A stretch of 64,000 nucleotides of DNA from a virus. The stretch covers positions 62,001 through 126,000 of the IMG/VR virus record IMGVR_UViG_3300028840_004168; one strand, 5' to 3'. The translations under genes and the position numbers were made by a program. This document shows positions 6,672 through 63,660 of the stretch, piece by piece. The notes under the pieces were generated by a model. The model was not told the origin of the DNA, did not search any database, and saw nothing but the letters and a program-made list of their open reading frames with translations. Numbering within the stretch: position 1 is the first letter of the stretch; every line of letters starts with the position of its first letter.

Positions 6672-6686
6672 GATCTAATGCCTCCG

Positions 6687-27580: not shown

Positions 27581-27896
27581 ATATTTAAATTCAATAACAG
27601 TGGATATTAAGATGTATTCATGCTTTACGTTTGAAAGAATACATCACATAATCAAGACAGCTGATGCTGATGGGCACGACTCAATTGCACTCAGGGCGTA
27701 TTGTACTGCAGGATGGCTGATAGAAAAAGCGCATGCAGATAAAGTCATAAAAGTAGTCAGCAGCACAGATCCACAGCTATGCCCTCATTGCCTGATGGTA
27801 GCTAATACTAAGATAGAAATAAAAGAATATGATCTGAAAGATATATTTCCACCAGCAAGAAAACGGAGAAGGTTTAACTATGGTAACAACGATTAA
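27570..27896 (+). CDS. Small zinc knuckle protein with basic-aromatic tail
   Basis: 108 residues. R-A-Y-C-T-A-G-W...D-P-Q-L-C-P-H-C is the same knuckle as in the neighbour. The tail, R-K-R-R-R-F-N-Y-G-N, again contains the next gene's ATG in its Tyr-Gly codons (27880). Partner binding through the metal knuckle is likely, but no function is known. Confidence 0.68.
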   Translation: MVSRYLNSITVDIKMYSCFTFERIHHIIKTADADGHDSIALRAYCTAGWLIEKAHADKVIKVVSSTDPQLCPHCLMVANTKIEIKEYDLKDIFPPARKRRRFNYGNND

Positions 27897-28695: not shown

Positions 28696-28702
28696 ACAAA
28701 CT

Positions 28703-30586: not shown

Positions 30587-31069
30587 ATGCTCATTCACTT
30601 CGTCTACAATATAATTATACTTAACGATAAATCAGAATACGCAGCCATCTTCGCACACACTATAGAAACAGGCAGCACTCACACTATCTCATCAGAGCCC
30701 ACAGAGCTCACAGATGAGGTTTTAAGCGCTTTTATCTACCATGTGCCTATACGTATCAAAGAGAGCTTCATACGGTCTGTAAACGGATATTTTGACGCTT
30801 CAGGCGACTTTGATTTAAACGACTGGCAGGCTCAGACTAACCACAGACATCTCGTTGGCTTTACAGGAGAGCTGCATGTAGAAATGTTAAAGACATATTT
30901 AAAGTGCAACCAGCCGCCACTAGCCACAGTCTACAAGACAGCATACCATACCAAGATAGGCGAAGTTAATATGCAGTTCAACTTCCACGACTGCACTAAA
31001 GAAGGGTTTAAAGGAATCAACCCTGCCAGAAGAAAGAAACGCAGAATCAGCTTTGCAAAGGAGAAATAA
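30587..31069 (+). CDS. Paralogue of 29231 protein with basic tail
   Basis: 160 residues. Shares the T-D-E-V-L-S, L-H-V and P-L-A-T-V-Y-K blocks with the 29231-29719 protein. Ends A-R-R-K-K-R-R-I-S-F-A-K-E-K, a partial match to the shared tail (basic run then S-F). The end also carries AAAGGAG for the next gene. Confidence 0.62.
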   Translation: MLIHFVYNIIILNDKSEYAAIFAHTIETGSTHTISSEPTELTDEVLSAFIYHVPIRIKESFIRSVNGYFDASGDFDLNDWQAQTNHRHLVGFTGELHVEMLKTYLKCNQPPLATVYKTAYHTKIGEVNMQFNFHDCTKEGFKGINPARRKKRRISFAKEK

Positions 31070-31403: not shown

Positions 31404-31931
31404 ATGCCCGAAAAAGACTATGAACAGCTGAAAGACACGCTCAAACAAGGATTTACCATGAAGGCCAGGATAATGAACATGGCCCACCAGAAGCTCGTAT
31501 ACCGCATAGATGACTCCCACGTAAGCCTGATCATAGAAAAAGATAACATGACAGTCCTGACGATGGACGAATGGTACAAATGGATGAAGCAAGTAGGCTT
31601 TGACGGCGATGTTATGTCAGGCAGGCTCAAGACAGAGATCGTCAAATACTTCTACACATTCAACGTGGCCTACGGCTGCGCCTGCCATATAATCAAATAT
31701 ACAGAGGAACGAGACTACGGCCTCCAGCCCATACCCTACTGTGATGCAGCGATGCACAACACTATATTCCTGGCAAGCATGGGCGATGCACGCCTGCACG
31801 AAGTATACGAAGACAGTCCAGACATCTGCCATGACTGCCTCAAAAAAATAAAGCAAGACCAGGAAATAGAAGTCACAGCAACAAAAAAACTTAAAAAGAA
31901 ACGTTTATTCAACCAGTATAAGGCAAGATAA
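31404..31931 (+). CDS. PDLC group protein with basic-aromatic tail
   Basis: 175 residues: M-K-A-R-I-M-N-M, Y-F-Y-T-F-N-V, H-I-I-K, P-Y-C-D and S-P-D-I-C-H-D-C in the group order. Ends L-K-K-K-R-L-F-N-Q-Y-K-A-R. Richer in C at third codon positions than 28703, though the same protein plan, so the copies have diverged a long time. Confidence 0.7.
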   Translation: MPEKDYEQLKDTLKQGFTMKARIMNMAHQKLVYRIDDSHVSLIIEKDNMTVLTMDEWYKWMKQVGFDGDVMSGRLKTEIVKYFYTFNVAYGCACHIIKYTEERDYGLQPIPYCDAAMHNTIFLASMGDARLHEVYEDSPDICHDCLKKIKQDQEIEVTATKKLKKKRLFNQYKAR

Positions 31932-31933
31932 AT

Positions 31934-32485
31934 ATGGTAGCATATAGCACTCCAGCATTAAAGCAGAAAAAAGACCTGGCTGAATACCTTAACAGCATAT
32001 ATGTTGTAAAGGCACGTATACTTAACCTTACAGAATTAGGCTATCACTATAAACACGAAGAAGAAGAGATTGAGTTCCCACCAGATTCACTGACGATCTT
32101 AAATTCAGAGCAATGGATGGGCATCACAGCCAATACCAACTTCCTCAATAGAGTCCAAGAAGGCATATTTAAAGTAGACATAGCCAACTACTATATCTGT
32201 GTCAGGTACGCAGAGGGCAAGACATGGCACATAGTCAAAGAAGCCCACCTGACTAATATAGGCGGCTACACGCCTATATGCCTGTGCGATCCAGACAACC
32301 CTGCAGGCATAGTGACATTCCAGGCATCAGCCCATAGCAGGATGAATGAGATATACAGCAAAAACCCAAACCTCTGCCGCATGTGCCACAACATCGCCAG
32401 GGGGATAATACCGGAAGCAGATACAGAAGGCATGCGCATAAAGCCCAAAAGAAAACGTCTATTCAACCAGTATAAGGCAAAATAA
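31934..32485 (+). CDS. PDLC group protein with basic-aromatic tail
   Basis: 183 residues: V-K-A-R-I-L-N-L-T-E, N-Y-Y-I-C-V, H-I-V-K, I-C-L-C-D and N-P-N-L-C-R-M-C. Ends P-K-R-K-R-L-F-N-Q-Y-K-A-K, nearly the same as the preceding gene. The AAGG inside Y-K-A serves the next start, which overlaps the stop by 1 bp. Confidence 0.7.
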   Translation: MVAYSTPALKQKKDLAEYLNSIYVVKARILNLTELGYHYKHEEEEIEFPPDSLTILNSEQWMGITANTNFLNRVQEGIFKVDIANYYICVRYAEGKTWHIVKEAHLTNIGGYTPICLCDPDNPAGIVTFQASAHSRMNEIYSKNPNLCRMCHNIARGIIPEADTEGMRIKPKRKRLFNQYKAK

Positions 32486-33033
32486 TGAACATAACCAGAG
32501 TCAAAGAATACATGGAAGAGACTGTTGCCAAGAAGATAAGGATACTTTGCAATACAGCAACACCTATATCTTTCGTATTACATGGCAGATACTGGCATCC
32601 CACATTCAACCCAGGATCTACAATCACAGTCAATATGGAAGAATATAACGCCCTGCTTGCACATGAAACTTTCGTGAGGCTCATAAAAACCAAAGGCCTT
32701 ATCATAGAAGAGGCTGTCTATTATACCTGCTTCAACCCCAATCAAGACTCGAACAGCCTCTGGCATGTCATCAAAGACGTGCAAACGGCAAGCGAGACGT
32801 TGTCTATATATAGACCCAGGCCCCTGTGCAATGAAAAGATGGATCACAATATGAGGGCATCGGAAAAAACGCCTACACAATGGGTCACACGGCTCCAGCA
32901 CAACTGCCCCGACATCTGTATGAAGTGCAGAGTAATCATGGGCAATATCTTAAAAGAAGCCGAAGACAAGCAAACAGACCCACCAGCGGCAGCTCGTAAG
33001 AAACGTTTATTCAACCAGTTCCTGAAAAGCTAG
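32485..33033 (+). CDS. PDLC group protein, last of the array
   Basis: 182 residues: K-K-I-R-I-L, V-Y-Y-T-C-F, H-V-I-K, P-L-C-N and C-P-D-I-C-M-K-C. Ends A-R-K-K-R-L-F-N-Q-F-L-K-S. No gene follows on this strand, so the tail here cannot be explained by the start signals of a downstream gene. This makes it a useful control for a protein-level role of the tail. Confidence 0.7.
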   Translation: MNITRVKEYMEETVAKKIRILCNTATPISFVLHGRYWHPTFNPGSTITVNMEEYNALLAHETFVRLIKTKGLIIEEAVYYTCFNPNQDSNSLWHVIKDVQTASETLSIYRPRPLCNEKMDHNMRASEKTPTQWVTRLQHNCPDICMKCRVIMGNILKEAEDKQTDPPAAARKKRLFNQFLKS

Positions 33034-48373: not shown

Positions 48374-48799
48374 ATGAGCTTACTGTGGCAAGATACTAGC
48401 CAAGTATACTTGAATATCTGTGTAATATTTGGCTTGATTTTAATAGCATGGTATGGTATACATAGACTTATGGGATTCATACCATTGAGAATAACAAGAA
48501 TTATTCGAAATCGCAAGGGGGTAACTATGCCTAGCATTGATGAATTATTGTTCTTACACTACAAGCATGACAAGACATTCTGTCCTGAATGCGATCCTAT
48601 GGGTATATCTAAAACGCCATATGGAGTAACACAGCTCAATAAGCAGGTGCATCCAGGCAGGCAGGTAGTCATCAGCCTGCAATGTTCCAGGTGCAAAGCT
48701 GTCTGGAACGAGATCTATGACCTGGAAGATATAATAGTCACGTCTCCAGGGAGCGTAGGCAGCCTGAAACGCAACAAGAAGCCTTCACAAACCGCTTGA
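48374..48799 (+). CDS. Zinc protein, possibly membrane-anchored
   Basis: 141 residues from ATG 48374 (GAGG upstream), with a hydrophobic helix at ~13-30. An alternative start at 48527 has a stronger SD (AAGGGGG) and would give a soluble 90-residue zinc protein with C-P-E-C and C-S-R-C. Both may be used. The 48404 word CCAAGTATACTTGA lies inside the longer form's codons. Confidence 0.6.
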   Translation: MSLLWQDTSQVYLNICVIFGLILIAWYGIHRLMGFIPLRITRIIRNRKGVTMPSIDELLFLHYKHDKTFCPECDPMGISKTPYGVTQLNKQVHPGRQVVISLQCSRCKAVWNEIYDLEDIIVTSPGSVGSLKRNKKPSQTA

Positions 48800-48823
48800 C
48801 AGATTCTACGGATCTGATATAAT
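48796..48823 (+). promoter_or_regulatory. Promoter of a probable non-coding RNA
   Basis: TTGACA, 16 bp, TATAAT at the end of the previous gene. The promoter lies within a copy of the CAAACC...ATTCTAC repeat. Confidence 0.78.
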
Positions 48824-51694: not shown

Positions 51695-52228
51695 ATGCCT
51701 TTAAGAATGACACATGAATTCGCTTATGTAATCGCCAAAGGCGCTAACCTTTATGCTGAACGTGGGCGTATAATCACTGTCAACAAGATAGACTGCACTT
51801 ACTTTGGGGCAAGGCATTACGGCAAGCATGAGGAATTCAGCAGGCATGATTCATGTAAGAAATGCAACCCATCTTTCAGGAACGTGTGCAGATGGCTGAG
51901 CAAGGAGTTTGAAGGCCTCTGCCATATGATCAAGAATGTTGATGAATTCAAGAAGTATGATCTAAACTTAACCGAATGCCATACTATGATAAAGAAGCAC
52001 TTGCCGTATACCTGCACTTATATATGCAATACCAGGATGACAAGTGAAAAGAACAGCGAGTTCGGATATAAGCCTATCGAAGACCTGGAAGCTACATGCA
52101 GGTGGAGAGATGATTACATAAGCTTCGGAGATGGGCTGTATGATGCAGAAATGATAGAGAGGCCGCTTGATGAGCCAGTAATGAAAAAAAAGAAACGAAG
52201 CATGTTTAACTTCGGGGGTAAGAAATAA
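51695..52228 (+). CDS. CxFG family protein 1
   Basis: 177 residues, first of the CxFG array. Helical N-terminus, motif N30-x-I-x-C34-x2-F-G38, then C-K-K-C-N-x6-C-x9-L-C and further cysteines, a spacing suited to two zinc sites. Tail: K-K-K-K-R-S-M-F-N-F-G-G-K-K. The tail's GGGGGT bases are the SD of the next gene, whose ATG overlaps the stop by 1 bp. No known fold is recognised. Confidence 0.75.
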   Translation: MPLRMTHEFAYVIAKGANLYAERGRIITVNKIDCTYFGARHYGKHEEFSRHDSCKKCNPSFRNVCRWLSKEFEGLCHMIKNVDEFKKYDLNLTECHTMIKKHLPYTCTYICNTRMTSEKNSEFGYKPIEDLEATCRWRDDYISFGDGLYDAEMIERPLDEPVMKKKKRSMFNFGGKK

Positions 52229-52734
52229 TGGCAGGTATACATGATGACTGGGCTGGCATGTCTGATGTCTTGGCAAGGGCTGCGGTAATCACTATCAGGC
52301 GGCACAGGCTGATCGGTATCAATAAGATCGAATGCAAATACTTCGGGGCAAGGTATCTGCCTAATGGAGAAAACTGGCATGCTTACCGCCATGAATGCAA
52401 GGTATGCCATACAGACTGTGTAAATGCCTGTGCCGAGATGTCTCATGAGAGGGTCGATATATGTGGGCGTATACAGCGTATCTCTGGTGTCTCATGTCCT
52501 GTAGGCAGAGCGTTCTTTCCACATGTATGTGTGATGCTGTGCAAGCTGGCCTCAGAGAGCGAAAAGCCAAGCGCCACTGACAGATTTCAATCATATCCTG
52601 TGACCATGCCTTTCCACGACAACACAGAGATAGAGGTAAAGTTCACTAACAAGTCAGCTCATGGAGAGAGGGTTGCCAATAGAGTGCCTGATAAGAAAAA
52701 GAGAAGTATGTTTAACTTCGGGGGTAAGAAATGA
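52228..52734 (+). CDS. CxFG family protein 2
   Basis: 168 residues. Motif N32-x-I-x-C36-x2-F-G40, then C-K-V-C-H-x6-C-x9-I-C. The tail D-K-K-K-R-S-M-F-N-F-G-G-K-K is the same as in protein 1 from K-K-K-R on, and again provides GGGGG for the next ATG. A basic, aromatic N-terminal helix (R-R-H-R-L-I) precedes the motif. Confidence 0.75.
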   Translation: MAGIHDDWAGMSDVLARAAVITIRRHRLIGINKIECKYFGARYLPNGENWHAYRHECKVCHTDCVNACAEMSHERVDICGRIQRISGVSCPVGRAFFPHVCVMLCKLASESEKPSATDRFQSYPVTMPFHDNTEIEVKFTNKSAHGERVANRVPDKKKRSMFNFGGKK

Positions 52735-53246
52735 AATTCGATAAGATGTTCAGGGTAACTATAGACCTGATGCTGCTGACCACAAGCTATATGGCTAGGC
52801 GGTATCTGCTGATACACAGGAACGAGATCAAGTGCGCTTACTTTGGCTGCAGGTATAATGACAATAAACCGTTCGGCTATAACGAGATATGCAAGGAGTG
52901 CAACGGATCTTTCTTTGGCGTATGCGCAGACCTGTCTGTAAGAAGAAACTATCTTTGCAATGAGATATCAGACAGAATGGAATGTGAAGCTGCAGAAAAA
53001 ACATTCGGAGCTTTCTGCGGAGAGCTCTGTAAAACAGAACGGCGCAGCTATGAGTGTATAGATAATGGTAAAGGATATGAACCTGAAGCGATGGATCACA
53101 GGACGTGCGAAGGTATCAATCTAGCCTTCACTCTTACGGTAGATGACGATGCCAAGAAGCCGCCTGAGATAAGCGATATAGAGCCAGTAGCGAAGAAGAA
53201 AAAGAGAAGCATGTTTAAGTTCGGGGGCAATCGTGAAACTGACTAG
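52731..53246 (+). CDS. CxFG family protein 3
   Basis: 171 residues. Motif N31-x-I-x-C35-x2-F-G39 and C-K-E-C-N-x6-C-x9-L-C. Tail K-K-K-K-R-S-M-F-K-F-G-G-N, extended by R-E-T-D because the stop lies past the next gene's GTG start (53233). Confidence 0.75.
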   Translation: MKFDKMFRVTIDLMLLTTSYMARRYLLIHRNEIKCAYFGCRYNDNKPFGYNEICKECNGSFFGVCADLSVRRNYLCNEISDRMECEAAEKTFGAFCGELCKTERRSYECIDNGKGYEPEAMDHRTCEGINLAFTLTVDDDAKKPPEISDIEPVAKKKKRSMFKFGGNRETD

Positions 53247-53592
53247 AGGAAGCGTATCAAGGATGTTATCGAAGATAGTAGAGATAGGCGCTGGCACAGA
53301 CAAAGAACCGCCGCCTGATATGGGAATATGCGATAGCTGCGGTACTAAAGATTTTATCTGGAATTTTGAAGTGGAGCAGGAAGGTGACTGGGAAGAAGGG
53401 TATTATGACGTGCATGTCTGCCCTTACTGTGATGACGGATATATAGTGGATTACGACTACAGCCCTGAACAGCTGGAACTGCTGGAAACATACTGGGAAA
53501 GAAAAGATCAGAAAAGAAGGTATCTTGAGATGAAACCTTTAAAGAAAAAAAGAAAGATGTTTAAGTTCGGGAGTAACGATGTCAAGGAGTAG
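53233..53592 (+). CDS. Unrelated zinc ribbon carrying the shared tail
   Basis: 119 residues from GTG 53233. C-D-S-C-G and C-P-Y-C-D are an ordinary zinc ribbon (about 33-68), with no CxFG motif. Yet it ends K-K-K-R-K-M-F-K-F-G-S-N-D, the same tail as its neighbours. This shows the tail is a separable module. GGGAGT in the tail serves the next small gene. Confidence 0.73.
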   Translation: MKLTRGSVSRMLSKIVEIGAGTDKEPPPDMGICDSCGTKDFIWNFEVEQEGDWEEGYYDVHVCPYCDDGYIVDYDYSPEQLELLETYWERKDQKRRYLEMKPLKKKRKMFKFGSNDVKE

Positions 53593-53713
53593 GATACTTT
53601 ATAGCTTGAAATACAGCCTGAGAGTCCATAAATTAGCCGATATGGACTTCAAACCACGTTGGATGAGTGTTTATATACTCTTGCTGCCAAAGGGCGTTAG
53701 GAGACGAATATGA
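53579..53713 (+). CDS. Small basic protein
   Basis: 44 residues, overlapping 14 bp with the previous gene and 4 bp with the next. Arg-rich with an aromatic middle (F-K-P-R-W-M-S-V-Y-I-L-L-L-P-K-G-V-R-R-R-I). The SD GGGAG lies in the previous tail codons. Fills an otherwise unexplained 117 bp gap. Confidence 0.55.
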   Translation: MSRSRILYSLKYSLRVHKLADMDFKPRWMSVYILLLPKGVRRRI

Positions 53714-54276
53714 GCTTTAAAACAACTAAGGAGCAAATAACAGATATACTTGACATCATAGCGCAGACGGCTATAATAGACATGAATATCTTCAGGCTTA
53801 AAAATATGAACGACATTAAATGCGATTACTTCGGGGTGCGGTATACAGACGAACAAAAATCTTTTGTGGAGAATAAATTCTGCCTGACATGTAATGATGA
53901 GTTCAGTGAAGAATGCGAATCGCTGTCAAGGGAATGCTGTGATATGTGCGAGCATTTAAAAAGCATGATGAATTGCGGTGTGGCACAGATGGCAGTGCCA
54001 CGTCTATGCAAAGACTTCTGTGATTTCAGGACTCAGAGCTTCGGGGCCAGCAACAGCGAAGGGATGGGCTATTCGCCTGTGCCAGACTACATAGAAAGGG
54101 AAGACGAACATGGGCGTATAGCAACGATCCCCAATGTAATAAAAGGAGCCAGGGTTAACTATGTCCTAAAGACGATAGTAGATGGAGTGCAGGTAGCAGA
54201 TAAGAACATAGACATGCTGCATGCCAGAAACAAGACCAGGGTGAAGAGGCGATTTCATTTCGGGAGAAGCAAGTGA
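53710..54276 (+). CDS. CxFG family protein 4
   Basis: 188 residues. N-x-I-K-C-x2-F-G near 36-44, C-L-T-C-N-x6-C-x9-M-C. An additional C-C-D-M-C run is present. Tail R-V-K-R-R-F-H-F-G-R-S-K (M replaced). GGGAG in the tail is the SD for the next GTG start. Confidence 0.74.
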   Translation: MSFKTTKEQITDILDIIAQTAIIDMNIFRLKNMNDIKCDYFGVRYTDEQKSFVENKFCLTCNDEFSEECESLSRECCDMCEHLKSMMNCGVAQMAVPRLCKDFCDFRTQSFGASNSEGMGYSPVPDYIEREDEHGRIATIPNVIKGARVNYVLKTIVDGVQVADKNIDMLHARNKTRVKRRFHFGRSK

Positions 54277-54860
54277 AAGACACTAAAGAAGTTAAAGAAA
54301 GCGTCATGAATGCTGTCTTGGGGTTTATGCGCAGACTGTTCTTAATAGATATAGAGCGTGCATACCTCTGCCATATGAATGGCATTACCTGTAAATACTT
54401 TGGCAGAAAGTATCTTGAAGCGAATGGAGAAGATGAAAACAATATCCTGAAGGTATACGTGGAAAATGAAAATACTCATGCTGCCTGTCTTCACTGTAAC
54501 GATGAATTCAGGGTTGAATGTATCAGGATAGCAGGCAGGGCATACAGGCTATGCGATGATATCAGGCACACTCTTGCTATTAGCTGTGGCGAATGCGAAA
54601 GGATGTTTCCAGGGCTGCTTGCAGGCTACTGTGACCACATGAACGAAAGCGCTAAAAGAAATGATGCTAATGTAGATGACAACTATCGCTCTGTGCCTGT
54701 AGGCTGTGCAGGAGATGGCGAAGAGCTGCCTTACAACATCGTGTTCAATCATGGAGACAGAACGTTTATAGTGAAAGAGCTCAGGAGTTCGTTTCCTATA
54801 GAGCCAGAGCAGCCGAAGAAGAAACGTAAGTTTCATTTCGGGAGAAGCAAGGATGAATAA
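54273..54860 (+). CDS. CxFG family protein 5
   Basis: 195 residues from GTG 54273. N-x-I-T-C-x2-F-G, a longer spacer (~30 residues), C-L-H-C-N-x6-C-x9-L-C. Tail K-K-K-R-K-F-H-F-G-R-S-K, nearly identical to protein 4, so these two are recent duplicates at their ends. Confidence 0.74.
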   Translation: MKDTKEVKESVMNAVLGFMRRLFLIDIERAYLCHMNGITCKYFGRKYLEANGEDENNILKVYVENENTHAACLHCNDEFRVECIRIAGRAYRLCDDIRHTLAISCGECERMFPGLLAGYCDHMNESAKRNDANVDDNYRSVPVGCAGDGEELPYNIVFNHGDRTFIVKELRSSFPIEPEQPKKKRKFHFGRSKDE

Positions 54861-55377
54861 CAACGAACATGACGGACTGGACGATGCTACCAGGATAGTG
54901 GGAGATGCATGGCTGCTATACCTGGATCTATGCATGTTTGCAGACACAAACAATGTGTTGTGTATATACTTCGGGCTGGACTATGACCATGCCAGCAGGA
55001 CATGCCAGAAATGCCATCCAGCAGTAAGCGACTTCTGCCAGAACACAATCACTGTAAGGCAGCAGCTATGCGAAGAAAGAGACAACATTATAGATTATCA
55101 TGGCTGCCCTGACTATGGACAACAGATAGCTAATCCAGAGGCGCTGGAAGTCAAGTATTGGTGGGCTCCTTTGTGCTACAACCTGTGCTTCAAGGCAAGA
55201 GAGCTTAACAGGGCTAGGCACAGGCGCAGAGCGCATGGCAGCGAATACCTTGTCGATGAGTATCTTCCAGAGATTGAAATAAGAACCATACCAGAGGAAG
55301 CGCCAGTGCGCAAATCCACTGATATAGAGATAAAGAAGAAGGGCAGACGAATGTTTGGATTTGGAGATAAGCAATGA
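54853..55377 (+). CDS. CxFG family protein 6
   Basis: 174 residues. N-x-V-L-C-x2-F-G, C-Q-K-C-H-x6-C-x9-L-C. Tail D-I-E-I-K-K-K-G-R-R-M-F-G-F-G-D-K. The GGAGAT in F-G-D serves the next ATG (55374). Confidence 0.74.
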   Translation: MNNNEHDGLDDATRIVGDAWLLYLDLCMFADTNNVLCIYFGLDYDHASRTCQKCHPAVSDFCQNTITVRQQLCEERDNIIDYHGCPDYGQQIANPEALEVKYWWAPLCYNLCFKARELNRARHRRRAHGSEYLVDEYLPEIEIRTIPEEAPVRKSTDIEIKKKGRRMFGFGDKQ

Positions 55378-55880
55378 GCTGGCAAAATACTAAAAAGATA
55401 ATAGAGCTTACCAATGAGATAATGCGGTATCATCTATCATGGATATCTACCAAGAAGACTTCCAGCATCGCATGCAGTTCCTTTGGTATAGCCTATGAAC
55501 AGCTAGATGACCACTGCATAGAATGTAATGTGTATGTGAAAGAAGCATGCAGTAATTTCTCTCAGAAGTTCGGCAGCCTGTGTGCCAACGTTCAGACATA
55601 TGTGTGCAGCAAGAGGCCAGAGCTGCAAGATACAAAAGAGATATGTTCATTAACCAAGCCTGTGTTCCCTACGCTATGCAGCTACCTGTGCAGGATACAT
55701 CGTGGAGCTTCAACAGAAGTTGGCTCACGCTATCCACATTCAGGCGATAATTATATTCCAATCTATGAAATAGACATAAAGAGTAAACTGGTAAAGAAGG
55801 AGCCGAAAGTCGCTGATATAGAGATAAAGAAGAAGGGCAGACGAATGTTTAGTTATAACACACTTTCTAAGAAAGGCTGA
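55374..55880 (+). CDS. CxFG family protein 7, end of sub-array
   Basis: 168 residues. The motif is degenerate (S-I-A-C-S-S-F-G), then C-I-E-C-N-x6-C-x9-L-C. The tail keeps I-E-I-K-K-K-G-R-R-M-F-S-Y but the Gly is replaced and the end is N-T-L-S-K-K-G. No gene follows for 134 bp, consistent with the glycine codons being needed mainly for downstream starts while the basic-aromatic part is kept. Confidence 0.72.
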   Translation: MSWQNTKKIIELTNEIMRYHLSWISTKKTSSIACSSFGIAYEQLDDHCIECNVYVKEACSNFSQKFGSLCANVQTYVCSKRPELQDTKEICSLTKPVFPTLCSYLCRIHRGASTEVGSRYPHSGDNYIPIYEIDIKSKLVKKEPKVADIEIKKKGRRMFSYNTLSKKG

Positions 55881-55889
55881 AAAAAAATA

Positions 55890-55901
55890 TGAAATTTCAG
55901 A
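55890..55901. promoter_or_regulatory. Palindrome variant after protein 7
   Basis: TGAAATTTCAGA after the stop codon, between the sub-arrays. Confidence 0.5.
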
Positions 55902-55948
55902 AAATAAAAAATGCGCTCATTAAAAAACAAGTATGCTTAACTTTCTAC

Positions 55949-55976
55949 TTGACAAATGTTCTATTATTATTATAAT
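55949..55976 (+). promoter_or_regulatory. Promoter of the second sub-array
   Basis: TTGACA, 16 bp, TATAAT inside an ATTATTATTATAATAATAAT inverted repeat. The same word occurs near 45890. Confidence 0.75.
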
Positions 55977-56014
55977 AATAATAATGTATGAAAATAAGTC
56001 GCTAAGGAGTAATA

Positions 56015-56500
56015 ATGGCGAGTCGTAAAAATATAGACATACTGAAAGAAGTCAAAGCAGAGTCATATAAGCTCGACTGGTTACGCATGGAGTATGCGCA
56101 TGTAAACAAGATCAAGTGTGATGCTTTTGGAGCAAACGGCAGATCGTCTCCATGTAGCAATAATTGCCATGTCGATGTATTAATGACATGCAGGAATATA
56201 GAAAAAGAGCTGAAACGTATCTGCGATATATTCAGCCACTATAGAACATATGAGAAAAAAAGATGTGATGTATGTAGAGTCGAAGTGCCTGTGCTCTGGC
56301 ATGTCTGTAGTAAAAAGAATGCCAAGATAGTTGTGAGAGGGCATGCAGCTGAGTTAACTCCTGTGCGTAAAAACCTGTTGTTTATATCAGATGACTTCAA
56401 AAAAATAGAAGCTTTTGAAAGAAGCCAGAACAAGATAGAAAATATAGATATCAAATCCAGAAAGAGGAAGATGTTTAACTATGGCAAAAAAGAAAGTTAA
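56015..56500 (+). CDS. CxFG family protein 8
   Basis: 161 residues. N-x-I-K-C-D-A-F-G, then C-S-N-N-C-x7-C-x9-I-C (first pair widened by one). Tail D-I-K-S-R-K-R-K-M-F-N-Y-G-K-K. Its Tyr-Gly codons contain the next gene's ATG (56481), the same trick as at 27570 and 27880. Confidence 0.73.
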   Translation: MASRKNIDILKEVKAESYKLDWLRMEYAHVNKIKCDAFGANGRSSPCSNNCHVDVLMTCRNIEKELKRICDIFSHYRTYEKKRCDVCRVEVPVLWHVCSKKNAKIVVRGHAAELTPVRKNLLFISDDFKKIEAFERSQNKIENIDIKSRKRKMFNYGKKES

Positions 56501-57038
56501 GAATAAAACAAAGAAAGCTAAGAAAGCAGCCAACAAAGATCCGTTCAAAGAGCTCAGGCTTGCCGTATACCTGCTTGACTGGCGCATGAGTGAGTTTGAA
56601 TACCTGAATAGGATAAGCTGTGATGCCTTTGGAACCTGCATTGAATCAGAATGTCACGAAGAAGAGGATGGCGATTTAAGATGCAACAGGGAAGTCATGG
56701 CTAAGTGCAAGCAGTTTGAGAAAGAAAGAAAAAAGCTGTGCAAAGAGTTTAAACAGATGAGCCAGATAGTTTATGGTGACAAGTATAAGTGCACTAAATG
56801 TGTAGACCACCTGCCGTTGCTGGCAGCTATATGTGACAGAGACGGCCCTAATCCTGAATGCGACACAGATGTTGTTAAACAGATACCACACAGCGCTGTA
56901 TTGCTTATACATGAAGCAGATGGCATCCTGACATCAGGTGGATGGACTGAGATACCAGATGCAGCTGAGCAGATGCTTGAAAACATGCGAGACAAAAACA
57001 AAGGCAGAAAGATGTTTGCCTATGGGAGAAGAAAATAA
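56481..57038 (+). CDS. CxFG family protein 9
   Basis: 185 residues with a Lys-rich start (K-K-K-V-K-N-K-T-K-K-A-K-K). N-R-I-S-C-D-A-F-G, C-N-R-E-V-M-A-K-C-x9-L-C. A central C-T-K-C. Tail N-K-G-R-K-M-F-A-Y-G-R-R-K; GGGAG serves the next start. Confidence 0.73.
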   Translation: MAKKKVKNKTKKAKKAANKDPFKELRLAVYLLDWRMSEFEYLNRISCDAFGTCIESECHEEEDGDLRCNREVMAKCKQFEKERKKLCKEFKQMSQIVYGDKYKCTKCVDHLPLLAAICDRDGPNPECDTDVVKQIPHSAVLLIHEADGILTSGGWTEIPDAAEQMLENMRDKNKGRKMFAYGRRK

Positions 57039-57292
57039 TGGCTGTAACTTTAAAAAATTTAAAAGATCTGGAAGCTGCAATCAGATACAAGCTTGCTGAT
57101 AATCCATCAAGAGCTAATATAATATTGACCGTAGACAACAAGCGCAAGCACAGCTGGCTGGTCTTGAACAAGAAAGTTGGATTTGTTGAGACGGTCACAT
57201 TGTTTGAAGCCAAGAATAATCTGCCTGGGCGTGCTAAGATGTACACTTATCTTAAAGGGATGAGAATGGCATTGGAGATAAGCAATGGCTAA
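57038..57292 (+). CDS. Small hypothetical protein
   Basis: 84 residues, no cysteines, helix-strand mix (I-I-L-T-V-D-N-K-R-K-H-S-W-L-V-L). Sits within the CxFG array without the motif or tail. Overlaps both neighbours, so it is cotranslated. Confidence 0.58.
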   Translation: MAVTLKNLKDLEAAIRYKLADNPSRANIILTVDNKRKHSWLVLNKKVGFVETVTLFEAKNNLPGRAKMYTYLKGMRMALEISNG

Positions 57293-57767
57293 AAACACAA
57301 GAAGCGATATAATCAAAAAAGCCAGGGCGCTGTCATACGTCCTTAACTGGAAGATATGGGAGTTCAAGAAGATCAATAAAGTTACGTGCAGATTGTTCGG
57401 CAATTACAACGATTGTGGTGAAGAGGGCAAGTGCAATGTGGTATGCGTAGAAGCATGCGACATAATAGAGGGTGAACATAACTTTATCTGCAACCTGCTG
57501 GATGGTACTCAGTTTGAAAAAGATAATATATGCGAGATGTGTGAAAAAGAAGTGCCGCTGCTATATGAAGCATGCATAGATAAAGATAGATACAATAGCA
57601 GGCCGAAGAGCCGCAAGGCAAACGTGAAGCCGCTGCAGAACAACAACTCGTTCATTAAAACGATGAGAGAGTGCGGCATATATCTCAAGAAAGAAAAAGA
57701 AGAGAAGTCTAAGAGAATAAAAATTAAACATAGAAAGAGAAACATGTTTAGCTTTGGAGAAAAGTAA
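57285..57767 (+). CDS. CxFG family protein 10
   Basis: 160 residues. N-K-V-T-C-R-L-F-G, then a diverged C-N-V-V-C-V-E-A-C-x9-I-C, and C-E-M-C. Tail K-I-K-H-R-K-R-N-M-F-S-F-G-E-K; GGAG is the next SD. Confidence 0.72.
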   Translation: MAKNTRSDIIKKARALSYVLNWKIWEFKKINKVTCRLFGNYNDCGEEGKCNVVCVEACDIIEGEHNFICNLLDGTQFEKDNICEMCEKEVPLLYEACIDKDRYNSRPKSRKANVKPLQNNNSFIKTMRECGIYLKKEKEEKSKRIKIKHRKRNMFSFGEK

Positions 57768-58258
57768 TGGCAAAAGCAAAAGCTGAAGCAAAAAAGGAAA
57801 TAGATCGCCAGCAACTGATGGAGATCAGAAACATCAGGATTGCTTCTTATTTGCTTGACTGGGAAATGCGTGAATACCAGCAGCTTTACAACATAGAGTG
57901 CAAAGCGTTTGGTGGGTATGAAGAAAATACTATATGCGACAAGTGCAATGACAGGATAGCTAATGAGTGCGCCATGATATCAGATGCTGCGATAGAATTA
58001 TGTGAAGCAGGCGAGAACGGCATGTGCAGCCAATGTGAAGCTGATTATCCTGCATTGTTTAATGTTTGCGACAGATCAAGTGCAGGCCCTGAAGATAGGA
58101 AACCAGTTGACAGAAATAAAGAGATAAAATATCTCATGCCTGATGTTACTCTTAAAGTAAAAATAAAAACTATGATATCTGAAACAAACGCAGATTCTAA
58201 CATAGCGCCTGCATCCAGAAAGAAAAGAGCTATCAAGCTAGGAGATAAAAAGGAGTGA
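57767..58258 (+). CDS. CxFG family protein 11, tail diverged
   Basis: 163 residues. Y-N-I-E-C-K-A-F-G, C-D-K-C-N-x6-C-x9-L-C. The tail reads A-S-R-K-K-R-A-I-K-L-G-D-K-K, keeping the basic run and G-D-K but losing both aromatics. GGAG follows as SD. Confidence 0.7.
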   Translation: MAKAKAEAKKEIDRQQLMEIRNIRIASYLLDWEMREYQQLYNIECKAFGGYEENTICDKCNDRIANECAMISDAAIELCEAGENGMCSQCEADYPALFNVCDRSSAGPEDRKPVDRNKEIKYLMPDVTLKVKIKTMISETNADSNIAPASRKKRAIKLGDKKE

Positions 58259-58260
58259 CG

Positions 58261-58440
58261 ATGGTTGATGCCAGAAAATTTTGGGATAACTTTTTTGAAT
58301 TCCTGTCAGACACTGAAGGCCAGCCTATCGAAGAGATAGAAGCGGAGCTGAAAGAAGATGTCATAGACGTAGACAAGGTCAAGCAGAGTGTTTACGACTT
58401 GCTTGATAGATTTGAAAAAGAACAAAAGAAAAAGGAGTGA
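58261..58440 (+). CDS. Small acidic helical protein
   Basis: 59 residues from 58261 (SD AAGGAG). Helical and Asp/Glu-rich (E-E-I-E-A-E-L-K-E-D-V), ending in a Lys-rich stretch. Ends with the same AAAGGAGTGACG start signal as the next gene. Confidence 0.56.
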   Translation: MVDARKFWDNFFEFLSDTEGQPIEEIEAELKEDVIDVDKVKQSVYDLLDRFEKEQKKKE

Positions 58441-58442
58441 CG

Positions 58443-58823
58443 ATGTCTAAGTTTAATAAAGAAAATTCACTGGAAGTTGTTTCTTACATTCTGAAACAAA
58501 CTAAGGCCAAGAAGATATCATGGAGAAGGACAGGCGCTGGCATGCATCGTGATACCGAATACTATGATTACAAGGGCGCTATGAGATCATATAAATTGTT
58601 TATCAGCGGAGTGGTTGCAGGGGGCATATCTCATTGGCTGGATACCTTTCGACTGGTAATAGATAAAGACGATGTTATAGCAGCTGTGGAATGGCGAAGG
58701 CCGGAAATGAAAGAGTTGGTCAAGCTATGGGAAGAAGTTAGAAAATTTGCTGATAACAAACAAAGCGCCGATCAAAGGAAACTCAAGAAAGATATTTTAA
58801 AATTGGCAAGAGAAAATAAATAG
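58443..58823 (+). CDS. Hypothetical protein
   Basis: 126 residues. Basic, helical ends and a strand-rich middle (Y-K-L-F-I-S-G-V-V-A-G-G-I-S-H-W-L). No motif or tail. SD AAAGGAG. Confidence 0.58.
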   Translation: MSKFNKENSLEVVSYILKQTKAKKISWRRTGAGMHRDTEYYDYKGAMRSYKLFISGVVAGGISHWLDTFRLVIDKDDVIAAVEWRRPEMKELVKLWEEVRKFADNKQSADQRKLKKDILKLARENK

Positions 58824-58838
58824 AAAGGAGTAACAACG

Positions 58839-59192
58839 ATGGACGATGTGCTCACTACGCTAAAGAAAAAGAAAGAATTTTATCTGGAAGAAGTAAGTAA
58901 AATAAATAAGGCAATAGCGGTTATCACTAAAAAAGATACAGCTGTATCTCCTAGAAGAGTAAAATGGGGAGATGTAGTCATGGAAGTTTTTGAAGATCAA
59001 GATAAAGAGGTCTTATACTCTTTAGCCTATGTGCGCCAAGAGCTTGCAAGCAGAGGTTATCCAGAAGCATTAGACGAAAAGAAAAAGGCTGCTATATTTG
59101 ACGCATTAAAAAGACTAGTAGCTAGAGGAATATTAGGCAAAGATGGTAGTAGTCGTTATTATTTATATCAGAAAAGGAGTGACGATGTATAA
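58839..59192 (+). CDS. Possible winged-helix protein
   Basis: 117 residues. N-terminal coiled coil (T-L-K-K-K-K-E-F-Y-L-E-E-V-S-K-I-N-K), then Y-V-R-Q-E-L-A-S-R-G-Y and I-F-D-A-L-K-R-L-V-A-R-G-I-L-G-K-D-G-S-S-R-Y-Y-L, a winged-helix pattern with the R-Y-Y-L wing. Likely DNA-binding. Confidence 0.6.
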   Translation: MDDVLTTLKKKKEFYLEEVSKINKAIAVITKKDTAVSPRRVKWGDVVMEVFEDQDKEVLYSLAYVRQELASRGYPEALDEKKKAAIFDALKRLVARGILGKDGSSRYYLYQKRSDDV

Positions 59193-59922
59193 CATACTTT
59201 CTATTGACTGGGACTATTTCTTTCCAGATGTAGCGCCGTATGATTGGGGTCACACTGAGAACAGATCTCCTATGCCCCAGCAACTGCTTTGGACTATAAG
59301 AGCAGGCAATGGAGATATGTATGGCAAGAACAGGCCAGCGATTGATTATATTAAACCATCGGGGGCTGAGAAAAATTTCTGGAATTACATAAAATTTAAA
59401 GAGCACTCGCTGCTTGCCATATGTGAATCACACAGCGACCTGCATGCTATAGTTGACAAAGTCCTTGTGGCAAAAAAGATAGGAGTATGGAACTTCGATG
59501 CTCACCATGACCTATATCACAAAGACGAACTTGACTGTGCCAACTGGCCCCACCACCTTATCACAGACGGTTATATCAAGCTGAAAGATTACCACCTGAT
59601 CATGCCTGCCTGGGCTAAAGAAGCCAATGTCATGTGCAATTCCGCTTACAGACGTGATCGTGTAGATGTAAGATATGACATGCCTGAAGACCTGCCTGAG
59701 TTCGACATGATATTTATATGCAGGTCAGGCGCATGGACACCCCCCTGGTGCGATGCTGACTGGATCAAGTTTATCGAACACTGGAAAGGCACAAGGCAGT
59801 GGCGCACGAAAATAGCTCTCCAATATGCTTTAGAGCCGAGAGAGTTTGACAAGGATCAGGCTATGGAATGGGCTGCACAACAAGAAGAAGCGATGAAGAG
59901 AGTTATAGGAGCAAGCAAGTGA
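59185..59922 (+). CDS. UPF0489/arginase-like fold protein
   Basis: 245 residues from 59185 (SD AAAGGAG). Characteristic blocks: S-I-D-W-D-Y-F-F at the start, C-E-S-H-S-D-L-H, V-W-N-F-D-A-H-H-D-L-Y and D-C-A-N-W, with D/H ligands arranged as in arginase/deacetylase-fold metalloenzymes. This UPF0489-type domain is known in some phages and cellular genomes, but the substrate is unknown. An intact metal site is visible, so it is probably active. It interrupts the CxFG array. Confidence 0.68.
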   Translation: MYNILSIDWDYFFPDVAPYDWGHTENRSPMPQQLLWTIRAGNGDMYGKNRPAIDYIKPSGAEKNFWNYIKFKEHSLLAICESHSDLHAIVDKVLVAKKIGVWNFDAHHDLYHKDELDCANWPHHLITDGYIKLKDYHLIMPAWAKEANVMCNSAYRRDRVDVRYDMPEDLPEFDMIFICRSGAWTPPWCDADWIKFIEHWKGTRQWRTKIALQYALEPREFDKDQAMEWAAQQEEAMKRVIGASK

Positions 59923-60281
59923 CAGTTGAATTATTGTATGGAATCATAGATCTGACTATAGCTCAGATGCACAGCACAGCAGACCACGTATTCCAGGAAG
60001 ACAGTACTATATCTGTGCCATTAGATAAAATAATTCTGATGACCGATAAGAACTATCATTCACATTATTCAGATATTCCACAATCAGGATCTATGATATT
60101 CCTTGAAGGTGGAACCCATCTGACAGTCAAAGAAACAAGAGATTATATCTTTAAAGAAATAGAGAAGTCATTTGAGATCCTAGGTGTCAGCATGATTGAC
60201 AAGACCATAGGATCAAATAACACCAGACGGAAACGTAGATTATTCTGGATAAAGGATGAAGCGAATGAAAAAAAAGACTAG
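59919..60281 (+). CDS. Hypothetical protein with tail-like end
   Basis: 120 residues from GTG 59919 (SD GGAG). Alpha/beta without cysteine pairs. Near the end, N-T-R-R-K-R-R-L-F-W-I-K-D-E is a variant tail followed by E-A-N-E-K-K-D. Distinct from the CxFG and PDLC proteins, so perhaps another independent carrier. Confidence 0.58.
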   Translation: MTVELLYGIIDLTIAQMHSTADHVFQEDSTISVPLDKIILMTDKNYHSHYSDIPQSGSMIFLEGGTHLTVKETRDYIFKEIEKSFEILGVSMIDKTIGSNNTRRKRRLFWIKDEANEKKD

Positions 60282-60477
60282 GGCAGCAACAGCTGCAGCC
60301 AAGATGTTTGATGTGATATTTACACATGTAGATCTCATGTATCAGAACAACACAGCGCTTAACTACTTCAAGCACCTGAAGGAATGCGTGGATGCAGAAG
60401 TAGCGAGACGTGAACGTATTAAATTGCAGATCCGCAATCGCAAATGGAAAGCAAAATTAACACTAAACGGCAAATAA
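60265..60477 (+). CDS. Small basic protein
   Basis: 70 residues from 60265 (SD AAAGG). Basic, helical (A-A-T-A-A-A-K-M-F-D-V-I-F), ending R-N-R-K-W-K-A-K-L-T-L-N-G-K, only loosely tail-like. Confidence 0.55.
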   Translation: MKKKTRAATAAAKMFDVIFTHVDLMYQNNTALNYFKHLKECVDAEVARRERIKLQIRNRKWKAKLTLNGK

Positions 60478-60487
60478 GGAGCCAAAC

Positions 60488-60814
60488 ATGTTCAGGAAAA
60501 GCAAAGACGGATTAGATTTCGATAAGCTCTTTGGAGATTTTTTCAACAGGGAACGAACTATACTTGACAGTGTGGAAAGGAAAGTTCTCTTGGAGACTAC
60601 TGTTATAGTAAACGACCATGCCAGGAAAGCAACTGTGCCTGTCAATAACATAGACTACGTGCAGGAATACGATGGAGTAACCTTTGAAGGATACGAAGAC
60701 GATGTAGCTCACAAACGATGTAAGACTATCATATTCCTGAAGACAGACAGTATACTGCTTTCTCTGGATAAGTATGAAGATGTTATAAATGCAATAGGAT
60801 TGAAGAGAGGCTGA
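60488..60814 (+). CDS. Hypothetical protein
   Basis: 108 residues, SD AAGGAG. Helix-strand mix (T-V-I-V-N-D-H-A-R-K-A-T-V-P-V). No motif. Stop overlaps the next start. Confidence 0.58.
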   Translation: MFRKSKDGLDFDKLFGDFFNRERTILDSVERKVLLETTVIVNDHARKATVPVNNIDYVQEYDGVTFEGYEDDVAHKRCKTIIFLKTDSILLSLDKYEDVINAIGLKRG

Positions 60815-61311
60815 TGGAACCATTAAGCAATGTTAATAAAAAAATATTAAGAGAAGCGCTAGAGCTGTCAGCTAAAGCTGCATTGGTAGAGATGAATATC
60901 GTAGCAGTCAGTTGCCTGAACAAGATACCATGTGAATACTTCGGCATTGGATTCAACAGGAAGTGCATGAACAAGGGCAACGATCCAGAAGTAAGCAAGC
61001 GATGTGAACAGTTTGTCAAGCTATGGCAAGACCTATGCTTTCAAACTCAAGAGTTGCTTATGACAGGCGAATGCGAGAAGATAGGACATATTATATATGT
61101 AGCCTGCAGGCTGTGCAAGCTTAAGGCTAAATATTTAGAAGAGCAAGATCTGAATCTAATTTCCAGGTGCAGAATAAATGTGCCTGAGTTTGAAAACTTT
61201 GGCATCGACTGGTCTTTAAAGTTTAAAGATAATAAACTATGCGAAAGAGATTACAGAAAGAAGAAAGCTGCAGCCGCAGGCAAGAAAAGAAAGATGTTCA
61301 GTTTTAAGTAG
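60814..61311 (+). CDS. CxFG family protein 12
   Basis: 165 residues. N-K-I-P-C-E-Y-F-G, then a diverged K-C-M-N...K-R-C-x9-L-C and C-R-L-C. Tail A-G-K-K-R-K-M-F-S-F-K, without a glycine; the SD (TAGGAG) lies after the stop instead. Confidence 0.72.
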   Translation: MEPLSNVNKKILREALELSAKAALVEMNIVAVSCLNKIPCEYFGIGFNRKCMNKGNDPEVSKRCEQFVKLWQDLCFQTQELLMTGECEKIGHIIYVACRLCKLKAKYLEEQDLNLISRCRINVPEFENFGIDWSLKFKDNKLCERDYRKKKAAAAGKKRKMFSFK

Positions 61312-61325
61312 GAGATAAATAGTAA

Positions 61326-61844
61326 GTGAATTATAATTATAAGAAAGGGCATAAATACAGCATGACTAAAGGCGAAGAGATCAAGAGGCAGGCATTCCAG
61401 CTGCATTTCCAGTTTGAAAGGTTTGTCAGGATAAATAAGATAGAGTGTCCTCACTTCGGAGATGGATGGTCAGACCATCATAAAGATTGTCTGGAGTGCA
61501 ACGTGCTTGTAAATGAAGAATGCAAGCGCATTGACAGTGAGATAAAAAAGATATGCCGCACGATACAAGAAGGGTATACAAACGGATGCAGTGAGATGTA
61601 TCAGCGCAAATTCGCTCCGCTATGCCTTTCTATATGCCAGCCATTGAAGCACATAAAAAAGAAAGGGTTTCTGCGCAAGCCATATTTGAATAAAAATAAA
61701 GAAGCTATCACTATGTTTGAATTTAAAGTGTCTGTCAATAATAACAAGACAACAGAGCTCCAGGCAGTCAATGAATTCCTGACTGCTAAAAGAGTCAGGC
61801 GCAACTTCTTCTTTAATAAAAGCACTAAAGGAGTAGAGCGATGA
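61326..61844 (+). CDS. CxFG family protein 13
   Basis: 172 residues from GTG 61326 (SD AGGAG, 11 bases away; ATG 61362 is an alternative with no SD). N-K-I-E-C-P-H-F-G, C-L-E-C-N-x6-C-x9-I-C. End: K-R-V-R-R-N-F-F-F-N-K-S-T-K-G, a tail variant in which the M-F-x-F becomes N-F-F-F. Confidence 0.71.
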   Translation: MNYNYKKGHKYSMTKGEEIKRQAFQLHFQFERFVRINKIECPHFGDGWSDHHKDCLECNVLVNEECKRIDSEIKKICRTIQEGYTNGCSEMYQRKFAPLCLSICQPLKHIKKKGFLRKPYLNKNKEAITMFEFKVSVNNNKTTELQAVNEFLTAKRVRRNFFFNKSTKGVER

Positions 61845-62191
61845 CAGTATATAAAAGGTGGGCTGATATATTTACAAAGACACATGAATCTTACAACATC
61901 AGCTGTAACCACTTCGGAGTCGGTAAATACGATGGCTATAGTGAATGCAAAGATTGTGTGATCAGATATACCTGCAGAGAGCTAGGAAGTTTATTTATGT
62001 CGATATGCAATGCATATCACTCAGAAGACTGCGATGGTGACTGCGGCGCAGAGTGCCCTGTGCTTAATGATGCATGCCATATAGAATCAACCGATGCGCC
62101 GCCTACTCCAGTGATACGTGCAGACAAGCATAAGACGGAAATAGTCAAGCGCAAGAGGCGCAAGATGTTTCAGTTCGGAGATAAGAAATGA
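61841..62191 (+). CDS. CxFG family protein 14 (short)
   Basis: 116 residues. Y-N-I-S-C-N-H-F-G, C-K-D-C, then C...I-C at shorter spacing. C-D-G-D-C-G-A-E-C adds metal ligands. Tail V-K-R-K-R-R-K-M-F-Q-F-G-D-K-K; GGAGAT is the next SD. Compact form of the domain. Confidence 0.72.
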   Translation: MTVYKRWADIFTKTHESYNISCNHFGVGKYDGYSECKDCVIRYTCRELGSLFMSICNAYHSEDCDGDCGAECPVLNDACHIESTDAPPTPVIRADKHKTEIVKRKRRKMFQFGDKK

Positions 62192-62541
62192 CGATCTATA
62201 TTGATATATATCACAAGTGGGAAGATCATTATGATCAAGCTGTAGACAGATATGATATCAAATGTCCATACTTCGGTTTTGGCAGAACTTATGATTTTGC
62301 AGAGTGTAGCGAGTGCGCTGTAGTGATGACATGCAGTAGCATGGGAAGCTGGCATAAGGAACTGTGTGAAAGGCTGGATTCAGAAGAATGTAGCGCATAC
62401 TGCAAAGAAAGATATCTTGCAATGCACAAAGCATGTGAGAAACAGCACTCTCAATCTATACCTGTGTCTGTATTAAAGAAAGTAAAAGTCAAGAAAAGAA
62501 AAAGTAAGCGCAAGATGTTTCAGTTTGCAGATATAAAGTAA
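62188..62541 (+). CDS. CxFG family protein 15 (short)
   Basis: 117 residues. Y-D-I-K-C-P-Y-F-G, C-S-E-C, then C...L-C. Tail K-R-K-S-K-R-K-M-F-Q-F-A-D-I-K: Gly has become Ala, and a separate AAGGAG now precedes the next gene. This trade supports the idea that the tail glycine is kept partly for the SD. Confidence 0.72.
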   Translation: MTIYIDIYHKWEDHYDQAVDRYDIKCPYFGFGRTYDFAECSECAVVMTCSSMGSWHKELCERLDSEECSAYCKERYLAMHKACEKQHSQSIPVSVLKKVKVKKRKSKRKMFQFADIK

Positions 62542-62550
62542 GGAGAGTAA

Positions 62551-63660
62551 ATGTCAGAAGATGATCTTAAACAGATAAAAGACCTTGCATTGATGCGATA
62601 CAGGATTATGAATACGTTACAGCTTGAATGCAAGATGTTCGGCATAGTGGGATGGGCTACTTATAACACAGTCGGGATGTGTAATACGTGCAATCCTAAA
62701 GTCATGGATGCCTGTGTAAAGATAAGCGTCAACCACATGCACCTATGTCATGAGATAAAGGAATGCAGCAAGTGCAGGGATTATAACCAGGGCATTTTCA
62801 GCTTCTGTGAAGAGATAAGAAGAGTGCGTGATGATGAGTCTGCCTGCATCCCCTGCATAGAAAAACTGTCTGCAATAAGATTGAACAAGACGAAGCGCCG
62901 TCAGATGTTCAGCTTCAAGGAAGAAAAATCTGAAATTTCAGAAAAAAAAGTTGAACAGAAGATAGAAAAATTTTCTGAAGAGCTCAACAACATCGTGTTT
63001 AGCAACTTGCCAACGATAAACCACAGCGCTACGCAAGAGATGCCTACCGAAGAAGAAGCTGTTCCAGAAGTAGATGCTGTCGGACATGACGTAACCTACA
63101 AGCAACGCATAGCAGATGACATGGATGATTTAGACCTGCCAGCAGATTATTATATCACAACAAGATCTTATCTCGATGGCATAGGAGAGAACTTTGGCTA
63201 TAACGATGACGTATCACAAACGCTTGCTACTGGATTTGATCACATATCACAGTTCGACAGAAGGATATACGGCATCTTCACTCAGATAGATGTAGAGCAC
63301 CATGAATTCCCTCTGCTTGAAGCGGTAGACGACTTGCTTGAAGCGCTGCATGGCAGAACACATCTGGCATTCAGCAGCTACTACCATGACTCATGGACTA
63401 GACTTCATGACACACTGTTCAGAGCGCAGTTCTGTCCGTTCAGATGGCGCATAGCTTATGGCACTCCAGAAGAAGTAAGAGGCATGCTTTTAAATATGCA
63501 TGATGATGTCACTATGGCGCTTGCAGAATGCACAGATGAGTGCATGATGCATGTGGTATCGCATTTCCTCATCGCTCTTATAGTGAACGATTACAAATTG
63601 CAGGAACCTGCGCAGCCTGCAGATAGCAACTGGCATAGTGATGACGATATCCCTTTTTGA
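62551..63660 (+). CDS. CxFG protein 16 fused to a second domain with SSB-like tip
   Basis: 369 residues. Residues ~1-110 are a CxFG unit (L-x-L-E-C-K-M-F-G, C-N-T-C-N-x6-C-x9-L-C). The tail K-R-R-Q-M-F-S-F-K (~114-124) is internal, followed by S-E-I-S-E-K encoded by a perfect palindrome copy, then an acidic linker and a second domain (~180-350; helices, several His). The C-terminus W-H-S-D-D-D-I-P-F has the same last six residues as the E. coli SSB tip. A role in recruiting SSB-binding host proteins is a reasonable inference; no OB-fold is evident. Confidence 0.75.
   Translation: MSEDDLKQIKDLALMRYRIMNTLQLECKMFGIVGWATYNTVGMCNTCNPKVMDACVKISVNHMHLCHEIKECSKCRDYNQGIFSFCEEIRRVRDDESACIPCIEKLSAIRLNKTKRRQMFSFKEEKSEISEKKVEQKIEKFSEELNNIVFSNLPTINHSATQEMPTEEEAVPEVDAVGHDVTYKQRIADDMDDLDLPADYYITTRSYLDGIGENFGYNDDVSQTLATGFDHISQFDRRIYGIFTQIDVEHHEFPLLEAVDDLLEALHGRTHLAFSSYYHDSWTRLHDTLFRAQFCPFRWRIAYGTPEEVRGMLLNMHDDVTMALAECTDECMMHVVSHFLIALIVNDYKLQEPAQPADSNWHSDDDIPF

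Follow-up and report, generated by a model that had tools for sequence, protein, structure and literature searches.

Tandem sets of divergent phage proteins carrying a short common targeting peptide are a known precedent, and the closest analogues in logic to the locus described here are the internal proteins IPI, IPII and IPIII of phage T4, which are small, mutually divergent and furnished with a short common terminal targeting peptide; the T4 internal protein IPI* is a counter-defence protein (PMC3012670). Similar in anatomy is the single-stranded DNA-binding protein (SSB), a folded head followed by a disordered linker and a conserved end peptide, here a C-terminal hexapeptide through which replication and repair proteins are recruited (PMC5872125). 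Here we describe a tandem array of 16 cysteine-rich paralogues with variable heads and a common basic-aromatic tail, found in a 64,000-nucleotide stretch of DNA from an uncultured bacteriophage (the window, bases 62001-126000 of the 129,910-base IMG/VR virus record IMGVR_UViG_3300028840_004168; positions marked "record" count along the whole record, all others along the window). The family itself is absent from the libraries and collections searched. Unlike the T4 internal proteins, the array has zinc-type heads, a basic-aromatic C-terminal tag that also occurs on enzymes and an early-type promoter setting, and unlike the SSB peptide, which belongs to one hub, its tail is of opposite charge and common to unrelated proteins. 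We consider, with a probability of about 0.42, that the members are early adaptor proteins, in which variable dizinc heads would serve different targets while the common tail docks to one partner.

A tandem array of cysteine-rich paralogues

The tandem array, first proposed in a preliminary description of this DNA, is borne out, as all 16 open reading frames (ORFs) are confirmed on the + strand between 51695 and 63660, mostly overlapping by 1-20 bases, and one common profile unites them (aa, amino acids):

51695-52228, + strand: member 1, 177 aa, tail KKKKRSMFNFGGKK
52228-52734, + strand: member 2, 168 aa, tail KKKRSMFNFGGKK, modelled with AlphaFold2
52731-53246, + strand: member 3, 171 aa, tail KKKKRSMFKFGGNRETD
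53710-54276, + strand: member 4, 188 aa, tail VKRRFHFGRSK
54273-54860, + strand: member 5, 195 aa, tail KKKRKFHFGRSKDE
54853-55377, + strand: member 6, 174 aa, tail KKKGRRMFGFGDKQ
55374-55880, + strand: member 7, 168 aa, tail KKKGRRMFSYNTLSKKG
56015-56500, + strand: member 8, 161 aa, tail RKRKMFNYGKKES
56481-57038, + strand: member 9, 185 aa, tail KGRKMFAYGRRK
57285-57767, + strand: member 10, 160 aa, tail HRKRNMFSFGEK
57767-58258, + strand: member 11, 163 aa, exactly eight cysteines, degenerate tail RKKRAIKLGDKKE, modelled with AlphaFold2
60814-61311, + strand: member 12, 165 aa, tail KKRKMFSFK
61326-61844, + strand: member 13, 172 aa, tail KRVRRNFFFNKSTKGVER
61841-62191, + strand: member 14, 116 aa, tail KRKRRKMFQFGDKK
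62188-62541, + strand: member 15, 117 aa, tail KRKSKRKMFQFADIK
62551-63660, + strand: member 16, 369 aa, head, internal tail motif TKRRQMFSFK and an extra domain ending WHSDDDIPF

The head-derived profile scores 16/16 members at E <= 4e-18 (by construction), and the heads have a mean pairwise identity of 22%. Adjacent genes resemble each other a little more than pairs taken at random do (mean identity 0.249 vs 0.224, permutation p 0.0056), as expected from old tandem duplication. The opening motif originally ascribed to all members, N/Y-x-[IV]-x-C-x2-F-G, holds as written in 14/16 (not in those starting at 55374 and 62551) and fits all 16 only in the shorter form CxxFG, while C-x2-C-[NH]-x6-C-x9-[LIM]-C, given for most of them, is exact in 10/16.

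Cysteines make up 5.6% of residues in the array members vs 1.8% genome-wide, and in most members eight of them form a core of two sets of four (C-x2-FG/CxxC/C and C/C/C/C), the first consisting of C1, the CxxC pair and C4, the second of C5, C6, C7 and C8. C1 (that of CxxFG), C4, C5 and C8 are invariant, and the spacing C4-x10-C5 is exact in 16/16 members, the maximum reached by random placement of the same cysteines being 11/16 in 20,000 trials. The second set follows C6-x2-C7-x10-C8 in one subgroup (57767, 56015, 57285, 56481 and 62551, with 62188 nearly so) and has C7 near C8 as C-x3-C in another (52228, 52731, 53710, 55374 and 61326); at this putative second site the number of ligands would be kept while one position shifts between subgroups, as metal sites tend to do. 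The first set deviates in 56481, 57285 and 60814. Complete four-ligand Cys/His sets with conserved spacing, as in zinc-binding proteins, are present in most members, and each member probably holds two zinc ions. What had been called a new zinc signature thus stands as a cysteine signature absent from family libraries, its zinc being read from the spacing of the cysteines. CxxC knuckles and four-cysteine sites are common to the array and to zinc-ribbon, treble-clef and HNH Cys4 domains, but the array differs from these in its all-helical plan, the C-x2-F-G first knuckle and the invariant C4-x10-C5.

The first site has counterparts (C-x(0-2)-F-G, CxxC, C) elsewhere in the phage: in its single-stranded DNA-binding protein (phrog_1192; record 20201-21271, - strand), which carries a pair of CFG...CxxC-type modules and ends like an SSB in EEDIPF, and in two single-site proteins near replication genes that the head profile also matches (record 26231-27037, E 1.3e-4, and record 11069-11314, E 0.0028). 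The cysteine module of the SSB was spotted by eye, and this protein gave no score in the array-profile search. Unlike the array, the CFG modules of all three have one site only and come without the basic-aromatic tail.

The view that the domain belongs to no described family agrees with every library searched. There was no significant match in Pfam (best E 0.0086, single member) or PHROG (best E 0.019, single member), and in neither was any family matched by two members; NCBIfam gave no match for the three members scanned, and neither PADLOC (best E 0.014) nor an hmmsearch of PDB sequences (best E 0.071, MLL PHD3) gave a significant one. Matches to HNH, PtuB and double zinc ribbon models are at chance level. 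The AlphaFold2 models of two members (52228, mean predicted local distance difference test score 67.5; 57767, mean 77.7) share a predicted fold, i.e., in the same order a long N-terminal helix, a Cys loop, a central helix bearing C4 and C5, a pair of short helices, a low-confidence linker and the tail; both models are built on the same 16 sequences and are not independent. Foldseek against the PDB gave no fold match for either model (best E 6.0 and 6.3), and the model of 52228 resembled no BFVD entry.

About nine non-members lie inside the array interval (53233, 57038, 58255, 58437, 58839, 59143, 59868, 60256 and 60488). One of them, a 259-aa protein between array members (59143-59922), contains a stretch weakly resembling arginase/formimidoylglutamase (TIGR01227, E 0.0046, well short of the cut-off).

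A basic-aromatic tail within and beyond the array

Apart from the cysteines the members had been thought to have little other identity, which is wrong at the C-terminus. The whole-protein alignment reveals in all 16 a common motif at the end of the disordered linker, [KR]3-4-x-(M)F-x-[FY], often then G (e.g., KKKRKMFNFGGKK), internal in 62551 and degenerate in 57767. The last 18 residues are always positive (+3 to +9), and the charge of the heads ranges from -11 to +8. Literature searches found no shared C-terminal motif on phage proteins.

A position-specific scoring matrix (PSSM) trained on the 16 array tails only was used to score the C-terminal 30 residues of the 154 other predicted proteins; at a threshold of 8 bits it matched 12/154 C-ends, where internal stretches of these proteins would lead one to expect 0.96. 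These 12 are the seven proteins of a second array, the proteins at 53233 and 30587, a DUF3150 protein (record 6312-7421) and the proteins at record 4625 and record 126304. The heads of the second array belong to a different family (H...C...PDLCxxC), which the profile of the first array misses (E above 1). Tails outside the first array include:

27236-29227, + strand: second array, part 1, four H...C...CxxC-family proteins (27236, 27570, 27880, 28703), tails KRRKFNYGK, KRRRFNYG, KKRKFNQFKG and NKRKFNQFKG
31404-33033, + strand: second array, part 2, three proteins (31404, 31934, 32485), tails KKKRLFNQYKAR, RKRLFNQYKAK and RKKRLFNQFLKS
53233-53592, + strand: zinc-ribbon-like protein (CxxC...CxxC) with no array head, tail KKKRKMFKFGSNDVKE, 23.3 bits with the array-trained PSSM
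30587-31069, + strand: unrelated 160-aa protein, tail RRKKRRISFAKEK, 15.6 bits
22382-23272, + strand: HNH endonuclease-like protein (phrog_5200, E 8e-26, residues 19-157), weak tail-like C-end IKRKKRKIWLPKN, 6.0 bits

A looser regular expression, composed after the tails were seen and hence a less fair test than the PSSM, matched 32/170 C-ends vs 10/1356 internal windows, and 3/124 in the control Rhizobium phage RHph_I4. On the - strand an AAA+ ATPase (phrog_8638, E 9e-130) and then the DUF3150 protein (record 6312-9049) end in KKKRNINV and KRRKINFKK. Homologues of the AAA+ protein in three other phages are without the tail, which fits an add-on, but the AAA+ protein of the phage itself reaches only 4.4 bits. 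Three consecutive proteins at record 126304-128534 (+ strand) have an N-terminal hydrophobic segment and the basic C-ends KKRRRAIKHKK, RRKRKITTRSK and RRRSRKINRNK.

Could the tail-coding DNA be kept as a purine-rich stretch with a Shine-Dalgarno for translation of the next gene, and not for the protein? Such an explanation accounts for the glycine: in most members with an overlapping next gene, the Gly codon after F-x-[FY] doubles as the GGAG/GGGG Shine-Dalgarno of that gene, so that Gly is largely a by-product, and several members in which the Shine-Dalgarno stands apart (60814, 62188, 55374) do without it, although 53233 keeps it without such a reason. The KKRxMFxF core is left unaccounted for. 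Some tails are followed by a gap of 117, 134 or 4406 bases before the next gene, and one lies within member 16; the Arg codons of the tails vary, including CGC and CGT, as do those for Phe (TTT and TTC), so the constraint is on the protein. The tail is conserved at the protein level, and we find the translational explanation barely credible.

Several tails read KKRRRAI, RKKRAI or KKKRNINV, resembling RRKKAI of MuA, a known C-terminal ClpX signal (PMC8138137), and might accordingly be degrons or unfoldase-recognition tags that make early proteins short-lived. We judge this highly improbable, for a carboxyl-end degron should be fixed in position, and the motif, which is not tied to a free carboxyl end as a ClpX degron of the MuA type would be, lies 0 to ~10 residues from the C-end in most proteins and ~250 residues from it in member 16.

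Other candidates were rejected. The tail lacks the Q-x-x-L-F type consensus by which proteins bind the sliding clamp, no systematic search for a clamp gene having been made. A likeness to eukaryotic nuclear localisation signals (PKKKRKV-like) was seen but set aside, given that the record looks like a bacterial phage, and so was import into a phage nucleus, where the studied pathway relies on a surface and not on a terminal signal (PMC11087766).

Promoter-like sites and genomic setting

Placement of the array in an early-type region, as the preliminary description had it, is supported indirectly by near-consensus sigma70 promoters:

48796-48823, + strand: 12/12 sigma70-type promoter-like site upstream of the array region
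55949-55976, + strand: 12/12 sigma70-type promoter-like site, TTGACA-16-TATAAT, located between members 7 and 8 in a gap of 134 bases

The remaining 12/12 site, at 53750, falls within coding sequence. Replication operons and operons of small genes have similar sites ahead of them, and the structural block yielded none. This suggests that the array would be transcribed early, by the host polymerase, from sigma70-like sites. The palindrome TCTGWAATTWCAGA lies just upstream of several of these sites. The record has ~20 copies of it (e.g., at window 40844, 38942, 37753 and 49018), often a few bases 5' of a TTGACA -35 box, and it resembles an operator or an activator site belonging to a phage regulon. 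An imperfect copy (55888-55901) is found in the gap between members 7 and 8. A non-coding stretch also holds three copies of CAAACCGAC-N3-TTTATTCTAC (window 48951, 49073 and 49154), possibly a second promoter class or a replication element.

The tail, as defined by the regular expression, is present in 0/40 structural-block genes vs 32/130 elsewhere (Fisher p 1e-4), a contrast that becomes weak without both arrays (11/107, p 0.036). Alternatively, the tail might be a capsid-targeting sequence, through which the array proteins would be packed into the head and leave it together with the DNA to act in counter-defence, like the T4 internal proteins. The T4 logic is matched by a set of small, divergent paralogues that each carry a short basic peptide at one end, and the phage has a head protease/scaffold-like gene. 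However, the tail is not confined to proteins of the virion-cargo type, as it is found on the DUF3150 protein and those with N-terminal hydrophobic segments, and weakly on the AAA+ and HNH proteins, none of which is expected cargo. Moreover, neither array is part of the structural block, both adjoin sigma70-type promoters, and the capsid targeting sequence of T4 is N-terminal and cleaved, whereas the tail here is C-terminal. Packaging therefore appears quite unlikely to us.

The phage also encodes a DnaE-type polymerase, a UvsX/RecA-type recombinase, an SbcC-like protein, an SSB, a terminase and a capsid protein. Megablast and tblastn searches against phages (50,697) revealed no kin of array members or of a second-array protein, one array member had no relative among plasmids, peptide- and DNA-pattern scans of IMG/VR gave no relative of either array, the pattern matches being due to chance, and in a GTDB pattern scan no array relative was among the matches listed; single-protein scans detect close relatives only, and distant kin may escape them. 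The terminase, capsid protein, SSB, AAA+ protein and DnaE were also queried against phages (megablast/tblastn). The nearest relatives of the terminase are ~34% identical (Brevibacillus phage Emery), and close relatives of the terminase, AAA+ protein and DnaE were not found in IMG/VR by scans that may omit very near records.

Variable heads on a constant peptide

A variable head, a flexible linker and a constant peptide are the anatomy of adaptors or of one-address cargo. In the adaptor reading that we favour, each head would be small and helical, with a four-cysteine, probably zinc-binding, site at each end of the central helix holding it together, and followed by a disordered linker and the terminal basic-aromatic peptide. 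The surface of the head, varying between members, would bind different host or phage targets, and the common tail would be a docking or targeting peptide that brings both arrays and several other early proteins to one partner. Such a partner seems most likely to be DNA or a nucleoprotein complex at the site of replication, because the C-end of member 16 is identical to the SSB C-terminal hexapeptide DDDIPF and because the SSB and the protein at record 26231-27037 carry single-site cysteine modules. The latter (- strand, 268 aa, beside dnaE) combines its CxxFG cysteine module with a ~50-residue acidic repeat and a K/A/P-rich stretch ending in RG repeats, and could be a scaffold for the basic tails. 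Within the ORF of member 16, the palindrome TCTGAAATTTCAGA (62929) directly follows the tail, as though the gene were a fusion of two.

Uniformly positive tails, aromatic residues, zinc-type heads and SSB-type ends nearby would also suit a non-specific nucleic-acid-binding extension, with K/R on phosphate and F/Y stacking, in which case the array would comprise regulators that bind DNA or RNA and act on the transcription of host or phage. We hold this to be unlikely, as the order of basic run, (M), F, x and F/Y is stricter than general affinity requires and the heads are often acidic.

Several points weigh against the adaptor reading as well. Outside both arrays the tail weakens, with five further proteins reaching at least 8 bits, and the KKKR-I-x-V type ends (AAA+, HNH) fall below that threshold; lysine-rich ends evolve easily, and some tails may be chance. 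The varying charge of the heads means that direct DNA binding by them is not general, and the fold models rest on 16 paralogues only. The preliminary description saw in such an array a type of host-takeover or counter-defence set under diversifying pressure. This finds no support here, as no target, homologue or defence-related neighbour was found for the array members, although counter-defence may yet be a role of the heads.

More tentatively, and with some doubt on our part, we postulate that one C-terminal linear motif acts as a general address code for >25 otherwise unrelated early proteins, which would be routed to one partner or compartment inside the host. Two of their sets would have arisen by tandem expansion of different zinc-type heads, and new heads could evolve or be captured behind a constant tag. 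If this is true, a single pull-down with the tail peptide could expose the target of a large part of the early programme, and head-independent tails would offer a handle for searching other phages for takeover or counter-defence proteins that have gone unannotated, their heads being too divergent for homology searches. The array itself adds what is apparently an unknown two-site zinc-type helical domain.

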